From Thermus amyloliquefaciens (GTDB lineage: Bacteria > Deinococcota > Deinococci > Deinococcales > Thermaceae): 64,000 bases of DNA. Where the stretch lies: the NCBI RefSeq assembly GCF_000744885.1, contig NZ_JQMV01000003.1, positions 1,612,001 to 1,676,000 of the forward strand. The letters run 5' to 3'. Each line of letters starts with the position of its first letter. The stretch's first letter is position 1. The translations under genes and the position numbers were made by a program. Below, piece after piece: positions 14,363 through 63,690 of this stretch. Below the pieces are notes generated by a model, which did no database searches, was not told where the DNA came from, and saw only the letters and a program-made list of their open reading frames with translations.

Positions 14363-15104
14363 CCCCTAGAAGAAGCCCTTCCCCTTCCAACCGGACCTCC
14401 TCCCCCGGCTCCAGGAGGAAGGTGGCAGGGGGGGTAAGCCCTTCCCCCGAAAGCCGGGCCTCCCCCTCCAGGAGGGTGAGAAGGAGGGGAGCCGGGGCCC
14501 GAAGCCTTAGCCGCCCCTGGAGGGGGAAGCGGTAAAGGGCGAAGTAGGGGGTGCGGAGGAGGCGCTCCCCTCCCATCACGGGCTCAGGGGTCCAGGCGGG
14601 CAGGGGGGTGGGTTCGAAAAGGGCCACCGCCAGCGCCTTCTCCAGGTGGAGCTCCCGGGGGCGTCCGTAGTCGTAGAGGCGGTAGGTGAGGTCCGAGGGG
14701 GTCTGCACCTCATAGACCCGGGTCCCCGGCCCCAGGGCGTGCACCACCCCCGCAGGGAGGTAGACCACCTGGCCCGGGACCACCCGCATGCGGTTGAGGA
14801 CCGCATCCAGGGTGCCCTCCTCCGCCCTCCTTCGCACCTCCTCCCGGCTCACCCGCCGGGCGAAGCCGTAAACGATCTCCCCCGGGGAAAGGACGTACCA
14901 AGCCTCGTACTTCCCGGGCTTCCCCTCCACCCTTTGGGCGTAGGGGTGGGGAGGGTGGACCTGCACGGAAAGCCAATCGGCCGGGTCCAGGAGCTTCACC
15001 AAAAGGGGGGCCTCGGCCAGCCACACCTCCCCCACCCCGGGACCGAAGCCCAGGGCGCTCCCCCCCCAGACCCTGGCCACCGGCTTAGGCTCTAGCCGCC
15101 GCAT
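14343..15104 (-). CDS. Class I mannose-6-phosphate isomerase-like protein
   Basis: A cupin metalloenzyme of 253 residues expected to interconvert fructose 6-phosphate and mannose 6-phosphate. Zinc ligands appear in SVQVHPPHPYAQ, GKYEAWYVL and VVHALGPGTRVYEVQ, and the closing segment PSDLTYRLYDYGR is typical of the small ManA type. I chose ATG 15104 (MRRLEPKPVARVWGG); 15116 is possible. It is divergent from the SIS-domain isomerase gene, an apt partner, and its 3' end overlaps the convergent regulator gene by 20 bp. Confidence 0.88.
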   Translation of the reverse strand: MRRLEPKPVARVWGGSALGFGPGVGEVWLAEAPLLVKLLDPADWLSVQVHPPHPYAQRVEGKPGKYEAWYVLSPGEIVYGFARRVSREEVRRRAEEGTLDAVLNRMRVVPGQVVYLPAGVVHALGPGTRVYEVQTPSDLTYRLYDYGRPRELHLEKALAVALFEPTPLPAWTPEPVMGGERLLRTPYFALYRFPLQGRLRLRAPAPLLLTLLEGEARLSGEGLTPPATFLLEPGEEVRLEGEGLLLGASPEGA

Positions 15105-15123
15105 GGGGGTTAGCATAAGGGGT

Positions 15124-15993
15124 ATGCGCGACCTGGACCGCGAGGAAACCTACCTGGCCGACCGCCGGGGCCTGGCCCTGGAACTAAGGGACCTGGTGGG
15201 CTCAGGGCCGGTGCCCACGGAGGCCTACCCCGGGCCCTACGCCGCCTTGGGTTACGGGGAGGGCTGGTTCGCAGCCCAGCTCTCGGGCCTCCCCGACTGG
15301 ACGGAGGAGGGCACCCTCTTCGTGCTGGAGGGGGGCTACGACCTGGGGGAGGCGGCCGCCTTGGCCCTGGTGGCGGAGACGGAGCGGGTGCGGGTGGTGC
15401 GGCTGGGCTTCCGTGAAGGCGCCGCCTACCTGCCCCCAAGCCCCCTTGCCCCCTACCGCTACCTGCGCTTCCTCCTCCTGGCCACGGGGCAGGAGGAGGC
15501 CCTGAAGGAGGTGGACGAGGCCCTTCTCCAGGAAAGGCGGCGCCTCACGCCGGAGGTGCCCCTCGAGGAAAACCTGGCCAAGCTCCTGGCCTACACCCTC
15601 CTGGAAAGGCTTCCCCTCCTCTACGCCCCCTTCTTCCGCCCCTTGGAGGAGGCGGGGCAGAACCTCTTCGCCCGCATCGGGAAAAGCCTCTCCCTCACCC
15701 CGCCCCATAGCGCCCTGGAGTTCTTCCTCACCGGCATGGAGGCCCGGCACGAGCAGGGCGACCCCCTGGCCGCCCTCCTCCTGGGGGAAGGGGAGGCGGT
15801 AAGGCTGGCCAAGGAGATCCTGGAGTCCCGGGTGGACGCGGTGGCCGAGGTGCCCGCCCCTCCTGGAAGCCGCCTGGCCCAGGCGGTGGCCCTCTGGTAC
15901 CGCCTGGCCTGGACCGCCTACTACCTGGCCCTCCTCTACGGGGTGGACCCCTCCGACCCCGAGGTGCTGGAGCGCCTCAGGGAGGCCACCTAA
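15124..15993 (+). CDS. SIS-domain phosphoglucose/phosphomannose isomerase-like protein
   Basis: A 289-residue protein matching in size and character the T. thermophilus glucose-6-phosphate isomerase-like structural genomics protein of about 290 residues. The first half contains a degenerate SIS fold (GYGEGWFAAQLSGL, TLFVLEGGYDL). The second half has the PGI/PMI-type helix (LLYAPFFRPLEEAGQNLFARIGK) and helical bundle. Some usual catalytic positions cannot be confirmed by eye. Divergence from the ManA-like gene suggests a shared role in mannose/glucose phosphate interconversion. Start taken at ATG 15124; 15103 is the alternative. Confidence 0.75.
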   Translation: MRDLDREETYLADRRGLALELRDLVGSGPVPTEAYPGPYAALGYGEGWFAAQLSGLPDWTEEGTLFVLEGGYDLGEAAALALVAETERVRVVRLGFREGAAYLPPSPLAPYRYLRFLLLATGQEEALKEVDEALLQERRRLTPEVPLEENLAKLLAYTLLERLPLLYAPFFRPLEEAGQNLFARIGKSLSLTPPHSALEFFLTGMEARHEQGDPLAALLLGEGEAVRLAKEILESRVDAVAEVPAPPGSRLAQAVALWYRLAWTAYYLALLYGVDPSDPEVLERLREAT

Positions 15994-16084
15994 ATACCCC
16001 GTTGTGGCTTGCGCCAAAACGGATGGTTGCCCTGCCTTTTCCCCTTGCGGTGAGGCGCGCTGGCCCCTAGGGAGGTAAGACCCG

Positions 16085-53849: not shown

Positions 53850-53950
53850 TAAGTGCCGATGCCTGGGGGTTGCCGCAATGGGCAGGGAAGGGCGATGCCT
53901 AAAGCCTTTCTAGGGCCCCCGTCGTGGCCCAAGCCACGACGGGGCACTTA
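53850..53950. repeat. Dispersed structured repeat, copy A
   Basis: 101 bp starting TAAGTGCC and ending GGCACTTA (8-bp terminal inverted repeat). The inside contains GGTTGCCGCAATGGGCAGG, an AAAGCCTTTCT piece and a 12-bp perfect hairpin CCCCGTCGTGGC/GCCACGACGGGG with CCAA loop (53917-53944). It matches copy B (inverted) at 59703-59806 and, in part, copy C at 63617. It lies between hicdh and the pilM promoter. Confidence 0.85.
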
Positions 53951-54060: not shown

Positions 54061-55194
54061 GTGTTTTCGGGTTTGAGCAAGCTATTTAAACCCCGCGTGG
54101 AGGCGCTGGGCCTGGAGATCGGCGCCGCCAACCTAAAGCTGGTGGAGCTTTCCGGAAACCCTCCTGCCCTCAGAGCCCTGGCCACCCGGCCCACCCCTAC
54201 GGGCATTCTGGCGGAAGGGGTCATCACCGAGCCCCAGGCCCTGGCCCAGGAACTGAAGGAGCTCCTGGCCGAAGCCAAGGTGCGCAAGCGCTATGTGGTG
54301 ACCGCCGTCCCCAACCCCAGCGTGATTCTCCGCACCCTTCAGGTACCCAAGATGCCCCTTAAGGAAATGGAGGAGGCGGTGCGCTGGGAGGCGGAACGCT
54401 ACATCCCCTTTCCCATAGACGAGGTGGTCCTGGACTTCGCCCCCTTGGATCCCCTGGCCGAGGTGGCCGAGGGGGAGCAGGTGGAGGTGATGGTGGGCGC
54501 CGCCCGGCAGGAAGCGGTGGCCTCCCTCCTGGAGGCCCTCCGGGGAGCAGGCCTGACCCCCATCGTCCTGGACGTCAAACCCTTCGCCGGCCTCTACCCT
54601 CTGGAGGCCCAGCTCACCAGCGACCCCGAGGGGGTTTCCGTGGCCGTGGAGATCGGGGCGGAAAGCACCAGCCTGGTCCTCCTTAAGGGAAACCGCCCCT
54701 TGGCGGTGCGCATCCTCACCCTTTCCGGCAAGGACTTCACCGAAGCCATCGGGAAAAACTTCGGCCTGGACTTCCTCACCGCCGAGGAGGTGAAGCGCAC
54801 CTACGGCCTCGCCACCATCCCCACCGAGGACGAGGAGCTTCTTCTGGACTTTGACGCCGAGAGGGAACGCTACAGCCCCGCCAAAATCTACGACGCCATC
54901 CGCCCCGTTCTGGTGGAGCTCACCCAGGAGATCCGGAGGAGCTTGGAGTTCTTCCGGGTGCAACTGGGGGACGTGCAACCGGAGGTGGGGTACCTCTATG
55001 GCGGGGGGAGCCGGCTTCGGGGCCTGGCCACCTTGCTGACCGATACCCTGGGGGTTAACTTTACCGTCCCCGATCCTTGGCAAGGCATCCAAGTGGATCC
55101 CCGGCGCTTCGACCTAGAAGGGATAAAGCAGATGGGGCCGGAGTTCATGGTGCCCATGGGCCTGGCCTTGCGGGGGGTGATGCCCCTTGATTAG
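54061..55194 (+). CDS. pilM: PilM, actin-like type IV pilus/DNA uptake protein
   Basis: Cytoplasmic scaffold that binds the PilN N-terminus. The 377-residue actin-fold protein has LGLEIGAANLKLVELSG (about 16-32), VAVEIGAESTSLVLLKGNRPL (about 196-216), and the phosphate-type motif GYLYGGGSRLRGLATLL (about 305-321). GTG start with AAGGAGG. It begins the pilMNOWQ operon, which in T. thermophilus is needed for natural transformation, piliation and twitching. It overlaps pilN by 8 bp. Confidence 0.95.
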   Translation: MFSGLSKLFKPRVEALGLEIGAANLKLVELSGNPPALRALATRPTPTGILAEGVITEPQALAQELKELLAEAKVRKRYVVTAVPNPSVILRTLQVPKMPLKEMEEAVRWEAERYIPFPIDEVVLDFAPLDPLAEVAEGEQVEVMVGAARQEAVASLLEALRGAGLTPIVLDVKPFAGLYPLEAQLTSDPEGVSVAVEIGAESTSLVLLKGNRPLAVRILTLSGKDFTEAIGKNFGLDFLTAEEVKRTYGLATIPTEDEELLLDFDAERERYSPAKIYDAIRPVLVELTQEIRRSLEFFRVQLGDVQPEVGYLYGGGSRLRGLATLLTDTLGVNFTVPDPWQGIQVDPRRFDLEGIKQMGPEFMVPMGLALRGVMPLD

Positions 55195-56420: not shown

Positions 56421-57355
56421 AACCCCTTCTTTCACGCCTGGCCGAGGCTTGGCGCAACCTACCCCAGTCCACGAAGCTCCTCTTGGCGGGCCTCCTCTTG
56501 GTGAGCGCCGTGGCCATCTGGTACGTGGGCTTCTACTTGCCCGCCCAAGTGCCCGCCGTGGCCGAGCCCACCCCTGCCCCCACGCCCCAGGCCACCCCCA
56601 AGGCCATAGAGGCTCCTCCCATCCCTCCCCTCGAGGCGCAAGGCCAAGCCACGGCAACCCCGCCTTCCCCTAAGGCCCAGGCGGAAAAACCCCAGGCCAC
56701 GGAGGTCCCAAAGGCCCAAGCCCCCACGCCGGTACCGCAACCCCGCAAGGAGGCTCCCCTCCCCAATCCCTTTGTTCCCCTTGTGGTGGAGGCGCCACCC
56801 CCTGCTCCCCTGTCCGCCCCCACCCCTGCCCCCAGGCCCACACCCGTACCCACGGGTACTCCCGTCCGGGTGAGCCCGGGAACCCCCTTGCCCACCCCCC
56901 CAGTGGCCCAGACGCCCTCCCAACCCCTCCCCGGAAGCCAAGGGGCCCTGCCCGCTCCCAAGGTGCTGGCCCCGGCCTTCCGGGCGGAAACGCCCAAGGC
57001 TGAGGTGGAAGCCCCTCCCACCCTCACCCCACCAGCAGGGCTTGTGGAAGCCCCCTTGCCCACCCAGGCACCCCAAGGGGAAGGGAAGGCCGAACCGGCC
57101 CCTACCCCACCCAAAACCCCCTTGGAAACCCTGGTGGAGGAAAAGGGCCTCAAGCTTGCCGGCACGCTTCTAGGCCCGGTGAGCGTGGCCATCTTGGAAA
57201 GCAAGGAAGGGTACCTGGTGCTACCCGTGGGCAGCCTCCTTCCGGGTAGCGAGGCGGTGCTCCGGCGCATCGAAAGCGACCGGGTGGTTTTGGCACTAAA
57301 GGACGAGAGCCTTGAACTTTCTCTGGAAAGCATGCAAGCAGGAGGTGGCCAGTGA
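56417..57355 (+). CDS. pilW: PilW, Thermus-specific secretin-complex protein
   Basis: 312 residues: a membrane helix (LLLAGLLLVSAVAIWYVGF, about 20-38), a very long Pro/Ala/Thr-rich linker (about 45-235) able to span the wide periplasm, and a C-terminal PilP-like domain (LKLAGTLLGPVSVAILESKEGYLVL and VLPVGSLLPG, about 248-280). It takes the place of PilP in the operon. In T. thermophilus PilW is needed for the PilQ complex and DNA uptake. It overlaps pilQ by 4 bp (GTGA). The linker explains the low-complexity reading. Confidence 0.9.
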   Translation: MKPLLSRLAEAWRNLPQSTKLLLAGLLLVSAVAIWYVGFYLPAQVPAVAEPTPAPTPQATPKAIEAPPIPPLEAQGQATATPPSPKAQAEKPQATEVPKAQAPTPVPQPRKEAPLPNPFVPLVVEAPPPAPLSAPTPAPRPTPVPTGTPVRVSPGTPLPTPPVAQTPSQPLPGSQGALPAPKVLAPAFRAETPKAEVEAPPTLTPPAGLVEAPLPTQAPQGEGKAEPAPTPPKTPLETLVEEKGLKLAGTLLGPVSVAILESKEGYLVLPVGSLLPGSEAVLRRIESDRVVLALKDESLELSLESMQAGGGQ

Positions 57356-59628
57356 GAAAAGCCCTTATCAAACTTCTGATCCCCCTTTCTTTGGCCCTGG
57401 GCGTGGGATGGGCGGGAAGCCTTCCCCAGGAGCCCCGTTTTGACGCCAAGGTGGACCTGAAGGTTTCCGAAAGCCAGGTCCGGGCTGGGCTCACCCTGCC
57501 CCTAGACGTGGTCCTGGAAGCCCTGGCCCGGAGCGTGGGGCTCCAGCCCCTCATCTACCGGGCCTACGACCCCACCGGGGACCCGGCCAAGGCCCAGCCC
57601 CCCTTGCCCAACATCAAGTTGGACTTTCAGGGCAAGCCCTTCCGGGAGGTCTGGGAGCTCCTCTTCGCCACCTATGGCACCCAGTTCAACCTGGACTACC
57701 TCTTCCTGCCCCCGGACGTGGTGGTGGTGGCCCCCACCCAGGTGATCACCGCCTTGGTGGACGCCCCAAGCCGCACCGGGGCCATGGAGCGGAAACCCTA
57801 CCTGGTGGCCATCCCCGAGATCGCCTACCGGCGCACGGAAACCGACGCCCAAGGCCAAACCCGCACCGTGGTGAACATCGATGGGGCCAAGGGCTGGGTG
57901 CAAAACGATCTTCTCCCCTTCCTCTCCCGCGAGGCGGCAGGCCTCAGCGTGAACTGGATCGTGGTGGAGGAAAGCGGCAAGCTCAGGGCCCTTCTTTCCG
58001 TCCTGGCCACCCCGGAACAGCACGCCCGCTTCTCCGACATCCTCCAGCGGGCGGGGATTGACTTCCGCCCCCTGCCCGCCCTGACCCTGCCTAAGCCCCG
58101 GGTGGAACGCACCTACGCCCTCAGCCACGCCAGCTTCCCCGAGCTCCTCCCCTTCTTGCAAAACCAGGTGCCGGGCGCCCAGATCACCCCCGTCCCCACG
58201 GACCCCAAACGGGCCCTCGTCACCGCCACCGAGGAGGACCACACCCGCCTTAGCGAACTCCTCAAGACCGCGGACGTGCCCAGACCCACCCCTGTGGTAC
58301 GCCGGGTCTACGCCCTGCAAAACCTCACCTTCCAGGAGGCCCAGGAAAGGCTTCGCCCCATCCTGGACAAGGAGCTGAAGGGAGCCCGTCTAGAAGCCAT
58401 TCCCGGAAATCCCAAAGCCCTCCTCCTGGAGGCCACCGAAGCCGATCAGGCCCTCTTCACGGAAATCCTTAAGGCCGCGGATGTGCCTCCCCAGGTGGCC
58501 CCGCCCGCCCAGGAGGCCACGGTGCGCAGGCTCTACCCCTTGCGCTTCGCCGACGCGGAAAAGGTGGCCCCCTTCCTGGCCCGGGAGGTGCCGGGGATCG
58601 TGGTGCAGACCGTGCCTGGGCAATCGGTCCTTTCGGTGCGGGGCACGGAGAAGCAACTGGCGGAGGTGGAGAACCTGCTGGCCCAAATCGACCGGGCCCC
58701 CGAACAGGGGCCACCCGTCTTCCAGCGCTCCTACCAGCTTTCCAACGCCAAGGCCTCGGAGCTGGCCAAGGTGCTCCAGGAGGCCTTGCAGGCCCGGCAG
58801 GCGCAAACGCCCCAGGGCCAGGCCCCGTCGCCAACCCCCCTGCGCCAAGCCACGGTGGTGGCGGACGAGCGCACCAACACCTTGATCGTCACGGGCACCC
58901 AGGAGGACTTGAGCCTGGTGGAAGGCCTTATCCCCAGGCTGGACCAGGCGGTGCCTCAGGTGAACCTTAGGGTGCGCATCCAGGAGGTGCAGTCCAACTT
59001 CACCCGCAACCTAGGCCTCAAGTGGAACACCATCGCCGGCGGGAACGTGGCCGCCAGCATTCTGGATTCGGGGCTTTCCCTCATCTTTGACAGCACCCGG
59101 AGCCTGGCGGCCTTGAACATCCTGGCCACCCTCGAGGCCCTCCAGCGCCAAGGCCTCTCCCGGGCCCTAAGGGACGTGAACCAGACCGTGCTCAACAACC
59201 AGACCGCCCGACTCCAGTCCGGGGAGACCTTCCTCATCCGCCGGGTGGTGGGGGACCGGGTGGAAAGGGTGCCCTTTGACATCGGCATCATCGTGGAGGT
59301 TACCCCCCAGATCACCGCCGATGGGCAGATCCTCCTCAACATCAAGGCGGAGGTCTCCGGCAACGTGCAACGCAACCCCGTGGACGGGGACGTGGACCGC
59401 TTCACCAAGCAGGTGGTGACCACCACCCTCAGGGTGCGGGACGGGCAGACGGTGGTCCTGGGGGGCCTCACCTCTCAGGAGAACAACCAGGTGCAGCAGG
59501 GAGTCCCCCTCCTCATGGATATCCCCCTCATCGGGGAACTCTTCAAACAGCGCACCCAGGAAACCACCGACCGGGAACTTCTGGTGGTCATCACCGCCGA
59601 CATCCTGAAGGAAACCGCAAGCCGCTAG
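57352..59628 (+). CDS. pilQ: PilQ secretin
   Basis: Outer-membrane ring through which pili and DNA pass; 758 residues, as in T. thermophilus. Signal peptide (1-20, ending GVGWAGS), then a series of N-domains, each with a VxRxYxL repeat (VERTYALSHASFPELLPFL; VVRRVYALQNLTFQEA; TVRRLYPLRFADAEKVAPFL; FQRSYQLSNAKASELAKVL). The secretin domain ends with VPLLMDIPLIGELF (about 717-730). It is last in the operon and is followed by an 18-bp hairpin. Confidence 0.96.
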   Translation: MRKALIKLLIPLSLALGVGWAGSLPQEPRFDAKVDLKVSESQVRAGLTLPLDVVLEALARSVGLQPLIYRAYDPTGDPAKAQPPLPNIKLDFQGKPFREVWELLFATYGTQFNLDYLFLPPDVVVVAPTQVITALVDAPSRTGAMERKPYLVAIPEIAYRRTETDAQGQTRTVVNIDGAKGWVQNDLLPFLSREAAGLSVNWIVVEESGKLRALLSVLATPEQHARFSDILQRAGIDFRPLPALTLPKPRVERTYALSHASFPELLPFLQNQVPGAQITPVPTDPKRALVTATEEDHTRLSELLKTADVPRPTPVVRRVYALQNLTFQEAQERLRPILDKELKGARLEAIPGNPKALLLEATEADQALFTEILKAADVPPQVAPPAQEATVRRLYPLRFADAEKVAPFLAREVPGIVVQTVPGQSVLSVRGTEKQLAEVENLLAQIDRAPEQGPPVFQRSYQLSNAKASELAKVLQEALQARQAQTPQGQAPSPTPLRQATVVADERTNTLIVTGTQEDLSLVEGLIPRLDQAVPQVNLRVRIQEVQSNFTRNLGLKWNTIAGGNVAASILDSGLSLIFDSTRSLAALNILATLEALQRQGLSRALRDVNQTVLNNQTARLQSGETFLIRRVVGDRVERVPFDIGIIVEVTPQITADGQILLNIKAEVSGNVQRNPVDGDVDRFTKQVVTTTLRVRDGQTVVLGGLTSQENNQVQQGVPLLMDIPLIGELFKQRTQETTDRELLVVITADILKETASR

Positions 59629-59632
59629 CCTC

Positions 59633-59685
59633 CCATAAGCCCGGGAAGCTAAAGCCTCAGAGGCCTAAGCTTCCTGGGCTTATGG
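59633..59685 (+). terminator. Long hairpin after pilQ
   Basis: The 18-nt arms 59633-59650 and 59668-59685 pair fully with one G-T (start CCATAAGCCC, end GGGCTTATGG), loop 17 nt. There is no strong T-tract. Located 5 nt after the pilQ stop. Confidence 0.75.
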
Positions 59686-59702
59686 CTTTCTTCCCATGGC
59701 CT

Positions 59703-59806
59703 GGGGTCCTTCGTCATGGCACAAGCCACGACGAAGGACTCCAGAAAGACTTTGGGCATTGCCCCTCTTTCCTGCCCATTGCGGCAACCTCCATGCATCG
59801 GCACTT
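59703..59806. repeat. Dispersed structured repeat, copy B (inverted to A)
   Basis: On the minus strand it begins AAGTGCCGATGC at 59806, includes GGTTGCCGCAATGGGCAGG and TTTCTGGAGTCC, and ends in an 18-nt-arm hairpin with ACAA loop (59703-59742). Relative to A the outer stem reads GTCCTT/AAGGAC instead of CCCC/GGGG while the core CGTC-TGGC is shared, so pairing is kept. Confidence 0.83.
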
Positions 59807-59888
59807 GACCTTTCCTTTCTGTGTTAACTGTGGACAGGAAAGGGTTGACAAAGTCTTTTCTTTCTAAAATGAGAGAGGGGTGATGAAA

Positions 59889-60764
59889 ATGCGGTCCTTT
59901 ATCTGGTCGGCCTTCCTTTTAGTCCTTCTTTCCGGATACAGCACGTCCAGGTCAGAACCCCAAACCAGCCCATTACCGAATGCGGATGGCTGGGTGGAGC
60001 TGGCCCCTGGGATCCACTACAAGATGATGGGGGAAGGACGGGTCTCGTTGGACTACAACCCTCCCCTCTTCACCGAGGAAGGGGTGGCGAAGTTTGAAAA
60101 GTTTGCCCAAGAACAAATGGGTAAGGCCGTCAAGGACGAGGAGAAAAAGTATTGGGAGGAAGAAGTCGCCTGGGTCAAAAGACAACTCGCTCTCTGGGCG
60201 AGTGAGGAAATGGCAGTGATGGTCTTGGAGTTCGCCACCCTAAGCCGCTTTCCCCTGCCCTTGAGCGACGCAGACCGCCAGGCTCTTCGGGCCAAGCTCC
60301 GGGAGATCGTCCGCCTGATGAAACAGGGCATGGACCCTAAAGACCTACCCAAGCCAGACCTACCCCCCCAGCTCAGGACCCCCGACGGGGGAATGGTAAT
60401 AGGCCCAGACACCTTCCCCATCCTCGTCCAAAGCCTTACGCCCCAGTCCCTCTTCCCCTCCTGCAGCCTGGCGGCCTCCGCCATGCCCACCACGGGCTCA
60501 GCAGGAGCCAAGGCCTATGCCACGGCCACCTGTAGCACAGGATCCGTCATCTGGGGAAGCGTGGAAACGCGAACTTCGGCAAGGGCTGGCAACGATTGGC
60601 CAGCCCCCTGCTACTACTCGGGATGGCCCTCTTCCCAGTGCATGAGCGTAGCCTACAGCAATACAAACTGCTCTAGCAGCGCCTGGGCAGGGTATTACCA
60701 CCGGTGGCAGGACTTTAGACTATATTCTGTTCGCCGTTCTGCCTCCAATAGCCGCTGCTGGTAA
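59889..60764 (+). CDS. Exported protein with Cys-rich C-terminal domain, unknown
   Basis: 291 residues from ATG 59889 (GAGGGG about 8 nt upstream); GTG 59880 and ATG 59883 are alternatives. The export segment FIWSAFLLVLLSGYSTS looks like a lipobox whose Cys has become Tyr. A Lys/Glu-rich helical middle follows (EKFAQEQMGKAVKDEEKKYW). The last 110 residues hold all six cysteines of the mature protein (SCSL, ATCST, PCYYS, QCMSV, NCSSS, RCW) in a Ser/Ala/Tyr/Trp-rich context, probably disulfide-bonded and extracellular. G+C is lower than its neighbours. Placement after the pil operon hints at a surface role. No family recognised. Confidence 0.7.
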   Translation: MRSFIWSAFLLVLLSGYSTSRSEPQTSPLPNADGWVELAPGIHYKMMGEGRVSLDYNPPLFTEEGVAKFEKFAQEQMGKAVKDEEKKYWEEEVAWVKRQLALWASEEMAVMVLEFATLSRFPLPLSDADRQALRAKLREIVRLMKQGMDPKDLPKPDLPPQLRTPDGGMVIGPDTFPILVQSLTPQSLFPSCSLAASAMPTTGSAGAKAYATATCSTGSVIWGSVETRTSARAGNDWPAPCYYSGWPSSQCMSVAYSNTNCSSSAWAGYYHRWQDFRLYSVRRSASNSRCW

Positions 60765-60864: not shown

Positions 60865-62016
60865 ATGAGGTTTCTCACCGCAGGCGAGTCCCACGGGCCC
60901 GAGCTCTTGGCCATCATTGAAGGCCTGCCCGCCGGCCTCCCCCTCACCGAGGAGGACATCAACCCCTGGCTGGAAAAAAGGCAAAAGGGCTACGGGCGGG
61001 GCCGGCGCATGGTCATAGAAACCGACCGGGTGGAGTTCCGCGCCGGGGTCAGGGCCGGCCGCACCACGGGGGCCCCCGTGGCCTTGGCCATCCGAAATGC
61101 CGACCACCGGAACTGGGTGGAGATCATGGACCCCGCCCCGGGGAACGAGCCCCGCAAGAAGGCGCTCACCGCTGCCCGCCCTGGCCATGCGGACCTCTCG
61201 GGGGGCATCAAGTACGGGCACAAGGACCTTAGGGACGTGCTGGAGAGGGCCAGCGCCCGGGAGACCGCCATGCGGGTGGCGGTGGGGGCGGTGGCCCTGA
61301 AGCTCCTTTCCCTCCTGGGGGTGGAAGGCGTAGGGTACGTGCCGGGGATGGCCGGGGTTTGGGCCCGGGTGCCCTTCTCCTGGGACCTGGTGCCCCGCAT
61401 AGAGGAAAGCCCCCTGCGCATGACCGACCCCGAGGCGGAGGCGGAAGCCATCCGCCGCATAGACCAGGCCAAGGCGGAAGGGGACACCCTGGGCGGGGTG
61501 ATTGAGGCCCGCTTCCGCGGCCTGGTTCCGGGCCTGGGCAGCCACGTGCACTGGGACCGGAAGCTGGACGGGCGCCTGGCCCAGATGGCCCTTTCCATCC
61601 CCGCGGTGAAGGGGGTGGAGATCGGCCCGGCCTTTGAGAACGCCATGCGGCGGGGCTCGGAGGTGCACGACCCCATCTACTGGGACCCGGAACGGGGCTT
61701 TTACCGCAAGACCAACCGGGCGGGGGGCCTCGAGGGGGGCATGACCACGGGGGAGGAACTCATCCTGAGGGCCGCCCTAAAGCCCATCGCCACCCTGATG
61801 AAACCCCTTCCCACCGTGGACGTGGTGACCCACGAGCCCGCGGACGCCGCCAGGGAGCGCTCCGACGTCACCGCCGTACCCGCAGCCAGCGTGATCCTTT
61901 GCGCCCTCTCCGCCATCGTGCTGGCCCAGGCCTACCTGGAGAAGTTTGGCGGGGACACTATGGAAGAGATACAAGAACGAGTGGAGCGGTACAAAACCCG
62001 GGTCCGGAGCTACTAA
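60865..62016 (+). CDS. aroC: Chorismate synthase
   Basis: Final common step to chorismate, using reduced FMN. The 383 residues show the family signatures GESHGPELLAIIEGLPAGL (about 7-25), RPGHADLSGGIKYGHKDLRDVLERASARETA (split, about 111-140) and TNRAGGLEGGMTTGEELILR (about 284-303). It begins the aroC-aroK-aroB cluster, 17 bp before aroK. Confidence 0.97.
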   Translation: MRFLTAGESHGPELLAIIEGLPAGLPLTEEDINPWLEKRQKGYGRGRRMVIETDRVEFRAGVRAGRTTGAPVALAIRNADHRNWVEIMDPAPGNEPRKKALTAARPGHADLSGGIKYGHKDLRDVLERASARETAMRVAVGAVALKLLSLLGVEGVGYVPGMAGVWARVPFSWDLVPRIEESPLRMTDPEAEAEAIRRIDQAKAEGDTLGGVIEARFRGLVPGLGSHVHWDRKLDGRLAQMALSIPAVKGVEIGPAFENAMRRGSEVHDPIYWDPERGFYRKTNRAGGLEGGMTTGEELILRAALKPIATLMKPLPTVDVVTHEPADAARERSDVTAVPAASVILCALSAIVLAQAYLEKFGGDTMEEIQERVERYKTRVRSY

Positions 62017-62033: not shown

Positions 62034-62588
62034 ATGACCCGCCTCGAGGTGCCCCGTCCCGCCACCTTCGTAAGTCTCACCGGCTTCATGGGGGTGGGGA
62101 AAAGCCGCATCGGCTGGGAGCTCGCCCGCGCCCTCATGCTCCACTTCATCGACCTGGACCGCTACATCGAAAGGCGCACCGGCCTCTCCATCCCCGACAT
62201 CTTCCGCCACCTGGGGGAGGAGGCCTTCCGGCGCATGGAGAAGGAGGCGGTGCGGGAACTGGTGGCCAAGGACTTTCTGGTCCTCTCCTTGGGCGGGGGC
62301 ACCTTCGTGGACCCGGAAAACCGGGCCATGCTCCTCGGGCGGGGCCCCGTGGTGGCCCTTTGGGCGAGCCCCGAGACCATCCTGGAGCGGGCCACCCGCA
62401 AACCAGGGCAAAGGCCCCTCCTACAGGTGGAAAACCCCCTGGAGCGCATAAGGACCCTCCTCGAGGCCCGCAGGCCCATCTACCAGGAGGCCCACATCCA
62501 CGTCTCCACGGACGGCCGGAAGGTGGAGGAGGTGGTGGAGGAGATCGTGGAGAAGCTTTGGAGCCATGCAAAGGCTAAGCGTCCGTAA
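62034..62588 (+). CDS. aroK: Shikimate kinase
   Basis: Phosphorylates shikimate at the 3-OH. 184 residues: Walker A GFMGVGKSRIGWELA (about 17-31), shikimate site with IDLDRYIERRTGLSIPDIF (about 39-57), LSLGGGTFVDPENR (about 83-96, GGG motif) and the adenine loop. It overlaps aroB by 23 bp, indicating coupling. Confidence 0.96.
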   Translation: MTRLEVPRPATFVSLTGFMGVGKSRIGWELARALMLHFIDLDRYIERRTGLSIPDIFRHLGEEAFRRMEKEAVRELVAKDFLVLSLGGGTFVDPENRAMLLGRGPVVALWASPETILERATRKPGQRPLLQVENPLERIRTLLEARRPIYQEAHIHVSTDGRKVEEVVEEIVEKLWSHAKAKRP

Positions 62589-63618
62589 ACCCTTTCCCTA
62601 CCCCATCCGAATCGGAAAAGGGGTGCTGGCCGAGGTGAACCTGCCCGAGGGCCCCAAGGCCCTCCTCTACGACCGCAAGGTGGAGGGCTTCGCCCAGGAA
62701 GTGGCCGAGGCCCTAGGGGTACCCCACCGCCTGGGGCTGGAGGGGGGGGAGGGGGCCAAGACCCTGGAGGTCTACGGCCGGGTCCTTTCCTGGCTGGCAC
62801 AACGGGGCCTCCCCCGGAACACCACCCTGCTGGTGGCAGGCGGGGGCACCCTCACCGACCTGGGGGGCTTCGTGGCCGCCACCTACCTCCGGGGCATCCC
62901 CTACCTTGCCTTCCCCACCACCACCCTGAGCGTGGTGGACGCCAGCGTGGGGGGCAAAACCGGCCTCAACCTCCCCGAGGGGAAGAACCTGGTGGGGGCT
63001 TTCCACTTCCCCCAAGGGGTGTATGCGGAGCTCAAGACCCTTGGCACCCTCCCGCCCTTCACCTTCAGGGAGGGCCTGGTGGAGGCCTTCAAGCACGGGC
63101 TGATCTCCGGGGACGAGGGGCTTTTGGAGGTGGAAGGCCTCACCCCGGAAAGCCCCAGGCTGGAGGCCTACCTGGCCCAGGCGGTGGGGGTGAAGATCGC
63201 CATCACCGAGCAAGACCCCTTGGAAAAGGGGGAAAGGCGCCTCCTCAACCTGGGCCACACCCTGGGGCACGCCCTGGAGGCCTACACCCGCCACGCCTTG
63301 CCCCACGGGGCGGCGGTGGCCTATGGCCTCCTCTACGCCGCCCTGTTGGGTCGGGCCCTGGGAGGGGAGGACCTGGTTCCCCTCACCCTCCGCCTCCTCC
63401 GCTGGCTGACCCCACCCCCCCTGCCCCGGCTGGCCTGGGAGGACCTCCTCCCCTACCTGGCCCGGGACAAGAAGAAGGTCTCGGAAAGCCTCCACTGGGT
63501 GGTGCCCCTGGGCCTGGGCCGGCTCGTCGTCCAGCCCCTTCCCGAAAAAACCCTAAAGGAGGCCTTCGCCTCGTGGCGGGAGGCCCTCGAGGGGCTTGGC
63601 CTTTTTGGCGAAGGTTAG
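62566..63618 (+). CDS. aroB: 3-dehydroquinate synthase
   Basis: Second step of the shikimate pathway, NAD- and zinc-dependent. 350 residues: GGGTLTDLGGFVAATYLRGI (about 86-105), the catalytic stretch LSVVDASVGGKTGLNLPEGKNLVGAF (split, about 121-146) and zinc ligands in LNLGHTLGHALE (about 223-234) and HALPHGAAVAYG. The stop is followed immediately by repeat copy C. Confidence 0.96.
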   Translation: MQRLSVRKPFPYPIRIGKGVLAEVNLPEGPKALLYDRKVEGFAQEVAEALGVPHRLGLEGGEGAKTLEVYGRVLSWLAQRGLPRNTTLLVAGGGTLTDLGGFVAATYLRGIPYLAFPTTTLSVVDASVGGKTGLNLPEGKNLVGAFHFPQGVYAELKTLGTLPPFTFREGLVEAFKHGLISGDEGLLEVEGLTPESPRLEAYLAQAVGVKIAITEQDPLEKGERRLLNLGHTLGHALEAYTRHALPHGAAVAYGLLYAALLGRALGGEDLVPLTLRLLRWLTPPPLPRLAWEDLLPYLARDKKKVSESLHWVVPLGLGRLVVQPLPEKTLKEAFASWREALEGLGLFGEG

Positions 63619-63690
63619 GTGCCAAGGGGTTGCCGCCGTAGCCGGGGAATAAAGGGCATGCCCAAGGCTTTTCTCGGCTGAAAGCCTAAG
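63617..63690. repeat. Dispersed structured repeat, diverged copy C
   Basis: Same orientation as copy A: AGGTGCC, GGGGTTGCCGC, GGGCATGCCC and AAGGCTTTTCT follow in the order and approximate spacing seen in A and B. A different hairpin (AGGCTTT/AAAGCCT) replaces the conserved one. The first two bases overlap the aroB stop. Confidence 0.6.

Follow-up and report, generated by a model that had tools for sequence, protein, structure and literature searches.

Repeat copies in the vicinity of the pil operon

The window, that is, the whole stretch of 64,000 nucleotides of Thermus amyloliquefaciens DNA analysed here, contains two copies of a dispersed element, A and B. The pil genes that separate them are confirmed, the ORF at 54061-55194 being PilM and that at 57352-59628 a secretin. 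Copy A lies 70 bp after the end of an Iso_dh gene and 110 bp before the start of pilM. A profile of the family also matches two decayed copies, C and D. The features of the window are the following:

53850-53950, plus strand: copy A of the probable MITE, 101 bp including the terminal TA dinucleotides
53850-53857, plus strand: left terminal inverted repeat of copy A, TAAGTGCC, its 8 bp identical to Thermus IS630 ends
53850-53851: TA of copy A, the presumed target copy
53917-53944, plus strand: terminal hairpin of copy A, 12 bp, CCCCGTCGTGGC-CCAA-GCCACGACGGGG
53943-53950, plus strand: right terminal inverted repeat of copy A, GGCACTTA
53949-53950: TA of copy A, the second target copy
59701-59808 (approximate), minus strand: copy B, flanked by pilQ and a gene of unknown function
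59706-59739, minus strand: hairpin of copy B, GTCCTTCGTCGTGGC-TTGT-GCCATGACGAAGGAC (element strand), stem of 15 bp
63616-63688, plus strand: copy C, decayed, hairpin lost, profile match with E 1.3e-5
15991-16069, minus strand: copy D, decayed, profile match with E 0.007

The original prediction had described A (53850) and B (inverted, 59703) as copies of one repeat, with hairpins whose outer pairs differ but are paired in both, and with 8-bp terminal inverted repeats on A, and all of this is borne out. A 36-bp core, AAGTGCCGATGCNTGGNGGTTGCCGCAATGGGCAGG, is present in two places of the window, copies A and B only, where shuffled sequences lead one to expect none, and the two copies share 80% identity across 95 bp. 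The stems do differ in their outer pairs while both remain paired, and the terminal inverted repeats of A, TAAGTGCC and GGCACTTA, match exactly over 8 bp. Both copies also fold better than their shuffles, with z of -3.5 and -5.4. The ends of copy B are worn (TCAAGTGCC...GGACCCCAG), and its TTGT loop is of the inverted type, the usual one being GCAA. Regarding the decayed copies, the first TAG of copy C terminates the gene at 62566-63618, and the TAA of copy D (15991-15993) terminates the gene at 15103-15993. Copy D is weakly supported by the profile model; its position and both of its ends speak for it. An Rfam search of the window returned only two tRNAs, with no RNA family above the gathering score for the element.

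Family size and distribution

A search of the genome with copy A as query found some forty places, and a profile made with 26 of these copies gave about 50 at a cut-off of E <= 1e-5, all of them on the chromosome-sized contig. At the same cut-off, 17 out of 25 Thermus genomes contain profile matches, with up to 82 per genome; the carriers include T. tenuipuniceus and T. caliditerrae, and three of the 17 have one weak match each. None of 16 genomes from other genera of the order has a profile match, plasmid and phage records searched at the DNA level gave no match to the element, and among viral contigs the hairpin together with the right end has no exact match. The original prediction had overlooked the other copies in the genome and the two decayed ones in the window.

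The element measures about 106 bp and consists of 8-bp terminal repeats (TAAGTRCC), a middle that varies between subfamilies, and a 12-bp hairpin at one end. Across species, the length from the C of CTAAG to the G of CTTAG is almost always exactly 106 bp. Some of the own copies carry an extra inner hairpin; in a longer subfamily (L021, L024, L031, L034, L038) an inner hairpin of the type GGGCTTCGCCC is inserted in the middle of the element. At the other extreme, a minimal copy of T. caliditerrae (L115, CTAAGTACCCCGTCGTGGCGCAAGCCACGACGGGGTACTTAA) comprises the two ends and the hairpin within 40-odd bp. The family is thus short, devoid of a transposase gene and dispersed in many copies, with terminal inverted repeats and a target-site duplication, which are the hallmarks of a MITE.

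Empty sites and target duplication

The flanks of ten own copies and of copy A were joined without the element and searched in 13 relatives. The joined query presupposed a TA, but any different duplication would give a gap or extra bases in the alignment. In relatives, the sites without an insert are CTAG, TTAG or CTAA, and several of them align across the junction free of gaps. At site L009 (C3:1714483) the junction GGGCTCTAGAGCAGG, a CTAG, is found in G022 with 94% identity and without gaps. The site of the copy at 422786 (L029) is CTAG in nine relatives, that of the copy at 928602 (L003) is TTAG in three, and those of the copies at 1364106 and 1722752 (L010, L002) are CTAA. Since exactly one TA is lost together with the insert at the empty sites, insertion is accompanied by a 2-bp TA duplication. 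Junction alignments are less clear at L008, L014, L018 and A; the copy A site in G023 is compatible with an uninserted ATAG in a gapped alignment, and the flanks of copy B are not conserved in relatives. The evidence of duplication consequently comes from sister copies and not from A or B.

The likely transposase

A group of 1,060-bp IS630 elements, whose copies were compared across the genus, has TAAGTGCC and TAAGTRCC as ends with variable flanks beyond them. It is present in G026 (several copies), G025 and G002, and members or fragments with a TAAGTGCC end also occur in G004, G005, G008, G010, G015, G017, G021, G022 and G023. These elements harbor two overlapping ORFs, one with an HTH domain (HTH_32/33) and the other with a DDE_3 domain. 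A protein search retrieved members or fragments of the group in many Thermus genomes, mostly with TAAGTGCC at an end. The T. amyloliquefaciens genome itself retains a 523-bp relic (C3:944897-945419) with ends TAAGTGCTCC and TAAGTGCCCA, located in a CTAG site. The genome's own DDE_3 genes L071 and L072 were considered as partners and discarded, as they have other or no recognisable ends. The TAAGTGCC ends, being only 8 bp long, escaped a blind search of the surroundings of IS630 genes for long inverted repeats flanked by TA, and came to light in the comparison of copies.

The matching transposase that the original prediction had proposed to look for is thereby found genus-wide in IS630 elements, and its suggestion of a MITE-type element is sustained by the TA duplication at empty sites together with the matching ends. 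On these sequence comparisons, A and B are very probably copies of a non-autonomous MITE of the genus Thermus mobilised by IS630. We infer that the mover would be the transposase of the TAAGTGCC-ended elements, because both ends, target and duplication agree, while the remaining Thermus IS630 groups have different ends. The sequence common to MITE and IS is limited to 8-9 terminal bases. Two genomes (G002, G021) have the IS and no MITE above threshold, and in another (G009) MITEs are present and no IS of the TAAGTGCC group was found. The proposed model is that the transposase, made up of the HTH protein and the DDE_3 protein, would excise the MITE and insert it into TA, mostly within CTAG/YTAR, and that this insertion would duplicate the TA.

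Two observations concern the insertion sites of these elements. In G026 a MITE (L074) and a full IS630 (L218) with the same ends abut, with one TA in common (G026:C1:952770-953930). The sequence TTTACGACAGCCTC, directly followed by TAAG, recurs in several genomes immediately to the left of MITE or IS copies (L075, L100, L206, L227, L245); this terminal part of some other repeated gene, which may encode a transposase, seems to be a recurrent target.

Pairing and probable inversion of the hairpin

The 12-bp stem is 94% paired in the 26 own copies, with five double changes. Among 43 copies from ten genomes 99% of the stem cells are paired and 33 are double-change cells, above all of 500 shuffles. 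About six versions of the stem exist (GTCGT, GCCGT, GCTCT, GCCGC, GTGGG and GTCTT). The RNAalifold covariation term is 0.03 for the own copies alone, that is, none, and -1.45 across subfamilies. In the own copies the stem diverges from the consensus at 5.7% of its positions, and the terminal repeats and the remaining sequence each at 17%, so that the stem is kept three times better than either the terminal repeats or the middle.

The loops are of two kinds. In several genomes GCAA was counted 52 times, TTGC eight times, TTAC twice, and TTGG, TTGT and TTAG once each, and loops also occur as reverse-complement pairs (GCAA/TTGC, CCAA/TTGG, ACAA/TTGT, GTAA/TTAC and CTAA/TTAG). Among the 15 loops with at least three differences from GCAA, 12 lie within one base of TTGC, an excess with a binomial probability of 4e-12 if the loops are independent and of 3e-4 when only distinct loop types are counted. 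Inversion of the hairpin in DNA is the best explanation for this exact replacement of four bases by their reverse complement, which recurs in several genomes.

The original prediction took the compensating changes as a sign of selection on an RNA or cruciform structure. Pairing is indeed kept through base changes; the part about selection is not settled, as loops are found in both orientations, and inversion can also restore pairing after mutation, so that pairing by itself implies neither RNA function nor selection. An alternative is that the compensating changes are made, without any selection, by palindrome-templated correction, in which strands switch at hairpins during replication. This explanation has about an even chance of being right: the coexistence of GCAA and TTGC-type loops in several genomes fits an inversion in DNA, but some 6% of stem cells in the own copies retain mismatches, the copies are related, so that the inversions may not all be independent, and selection could act as well. 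The hairpin would form in DNA, and its maintenance could be due to template-switch correction, to transposition or to a use at mRNA 3' ends.

Placement at stop codons

With genes defined as simple codon-score ORFs and one 64-kb window as the control, which makes the p-values approximate, 21 of the 30 best own copies have an end that falls on the stop codon of a predicted gene, as compared with 7 of 32 non-interior CTAG sites in the window that are gene stops (p = 3e-4); both ends fall at stops of convergent genes in 5 of the 30 versus none of the 32 control sites (p = 0.02); and convergent genes flank 13 of the 26 copies that could be scored, whereas 8 of 52 gene pairs of the window are convergent (p = 0.002). 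None of the 26 lies between divergent genes. The empty sites illustrate how this arises, since the CTAG of L009 and the TTAG of L003 serve both genes as an overlapping stop, and in the filled sites each gene terminates on the TAA of CTAAG/CTTAG. CTAG is a natural stop-codon sequence that, read on both strands, can be a common stop of convergent genes; insertion into it turns TAG into TAA and leaves both reading frames intact, so that copies can survive at gene ends. The position at stop codons probably stems from target preference combined with the removal of harmful insertions.

It can also be argued that the element has been domesticated as a 3'-end module, its copies being retained for their hairpin, which would terminate or protect mRNAs and, where the genes are convergent, do so in both directions. 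The compensating changes would then reflect selection on an RNA hairpin, and such a role would be added to the MITE origin. The stem outlasts the terminal repeats that are needed for moving, and the excess of copies between convergent genes, with no divergent placement, points the same way. However, the position is also explained by target choice and loss of harmful insertions, template switching can restore stem pairing, and the hairpins are absent from terminator scans, with no T run after the stem on either strand, so that the definition of an intrinsic terminator (a hairpin and then a T run) does not apply to them. A host function of this kind is possible, at perhaps one chance in a few. 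Slightly less probable still is its genus-wide form, in which an element inserted into the common stop of convergent genes would provide both stop codons and a bidirectional hairpin terminating or protecting both transcripts, with selection keeping this hairpin while the transposon ends decay.

The pil operon and the REP reading

That A and B frame the pil operon in opposite orientations, as had been pointed out, could suggest paired regulatory sites delimiting pilMNOPQ, but this is hardly credible: about 50 copies lie elsewhere in the genome, and the operon also exists in relatives that lack these insertions. Copy A is absent before pilM in G007, G022 and G023; in G007 and G023 aroC comes immediately after pilQ, with no element between them, and G022 has a different copy behind pilQ, independently inserted in the centre of the palindrome GGGGAGGGCCTAGGCCCTCCCC. 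The framing is a coincidence. Even less credible is a REP/BIME element moved by a Y1 (TnpA-REP, RAYT) transposase, a type that the original prediction had also named. The copies are indeed short, intergenic, dispersed and hairpin-forming, but a Y1_Tnp (PF01797) search that was positive in E. coli found none in this genome, and terminal inverted repeats and TA duplication are not features of REP.

The G022 copy (L203/L271, G022:C5:15767-15872) sits precisely in the middle of a perfect palindrome of 22 bp with a T run after it, and its target looks like the pilQ terminator. In the window, a long imperfect hairpin (AAGCCCGGGAAGCT...AGCTTCCTGGGCTT, 59635-59682) directly behind pilQ adjoins copy B without being part of it. 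Between copy B and the aroC-like ORF at 60865-62016 lies an ORF of 294 aa (59880-60764) with no Pfam match, which is missing between pilQ and the aroC-like gene in G007, G022 and G023.

Relation to known elements and significance

The closest parallel is RUP of pneumococcus, which the account in PMC2229807, citing Oggioni and Claverys 1999, gives as 107 bp with a TA target and a 9-bp TIR, and attributes to IS630-Spn1. As far as that account goes, RUP resembles the Thermus MITE in length, TIR length, TA target, copy number (about 100) and ends common with an IS630-family element, whereas the Thermus MITE stands apart by its strong subterminal hairpin, its G+C-rich sequence, its exact placement at stop codons and its several subfamilies across the genus. 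The Thermus MITE is the counterpart of RUP, an element of the same kind, matched by description. The Correia/NEMIS elements of Neisseria (PMC2229807) are likewise MITEs of about 107-155 bp with terminal TA, a structured transcript and a long and a short form, but differ in their 24-bp TIR and known RNase III processing. IS630 and ISY100 share with the Thermus MITE the TA duplication and the IS630/Tc1-mariner transposase (PMC2170065), and IS630 also shares the preference for CTAG, according to the title of Tenzen and Ohtsubo 1991 cited there; both are autonomous, whereas the MITE has no gene. ISTth6, an IS630-family element of 1000-1400 bp with 2-bp direct repeats (PMC6352166), is like the TAAGTGCC-ended IS in being a Thermus member of the family with 2-bp duplications, a comparison by description in which ISTth6 may be that IS itself or belong to another group. 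The open-access literature searched yielded no earlier account of MITEs in Thermus and, as far as that literature shows, an IS630-mobilised MITE is new to the genus.

The MITE is tied to its probable transposase through common ends, a relic and empty sites. Its points of interest are the exact placement at stop codons and a strongly kept hairpin that seems to undergo inversion in DNA. Given such inversion, the compensating changes of a transposon hairpin are, on their own, no evidence for a functional RNA. The CTAG target, in turn, lets the element occupy overlapping stop codons with neither gene being broken.
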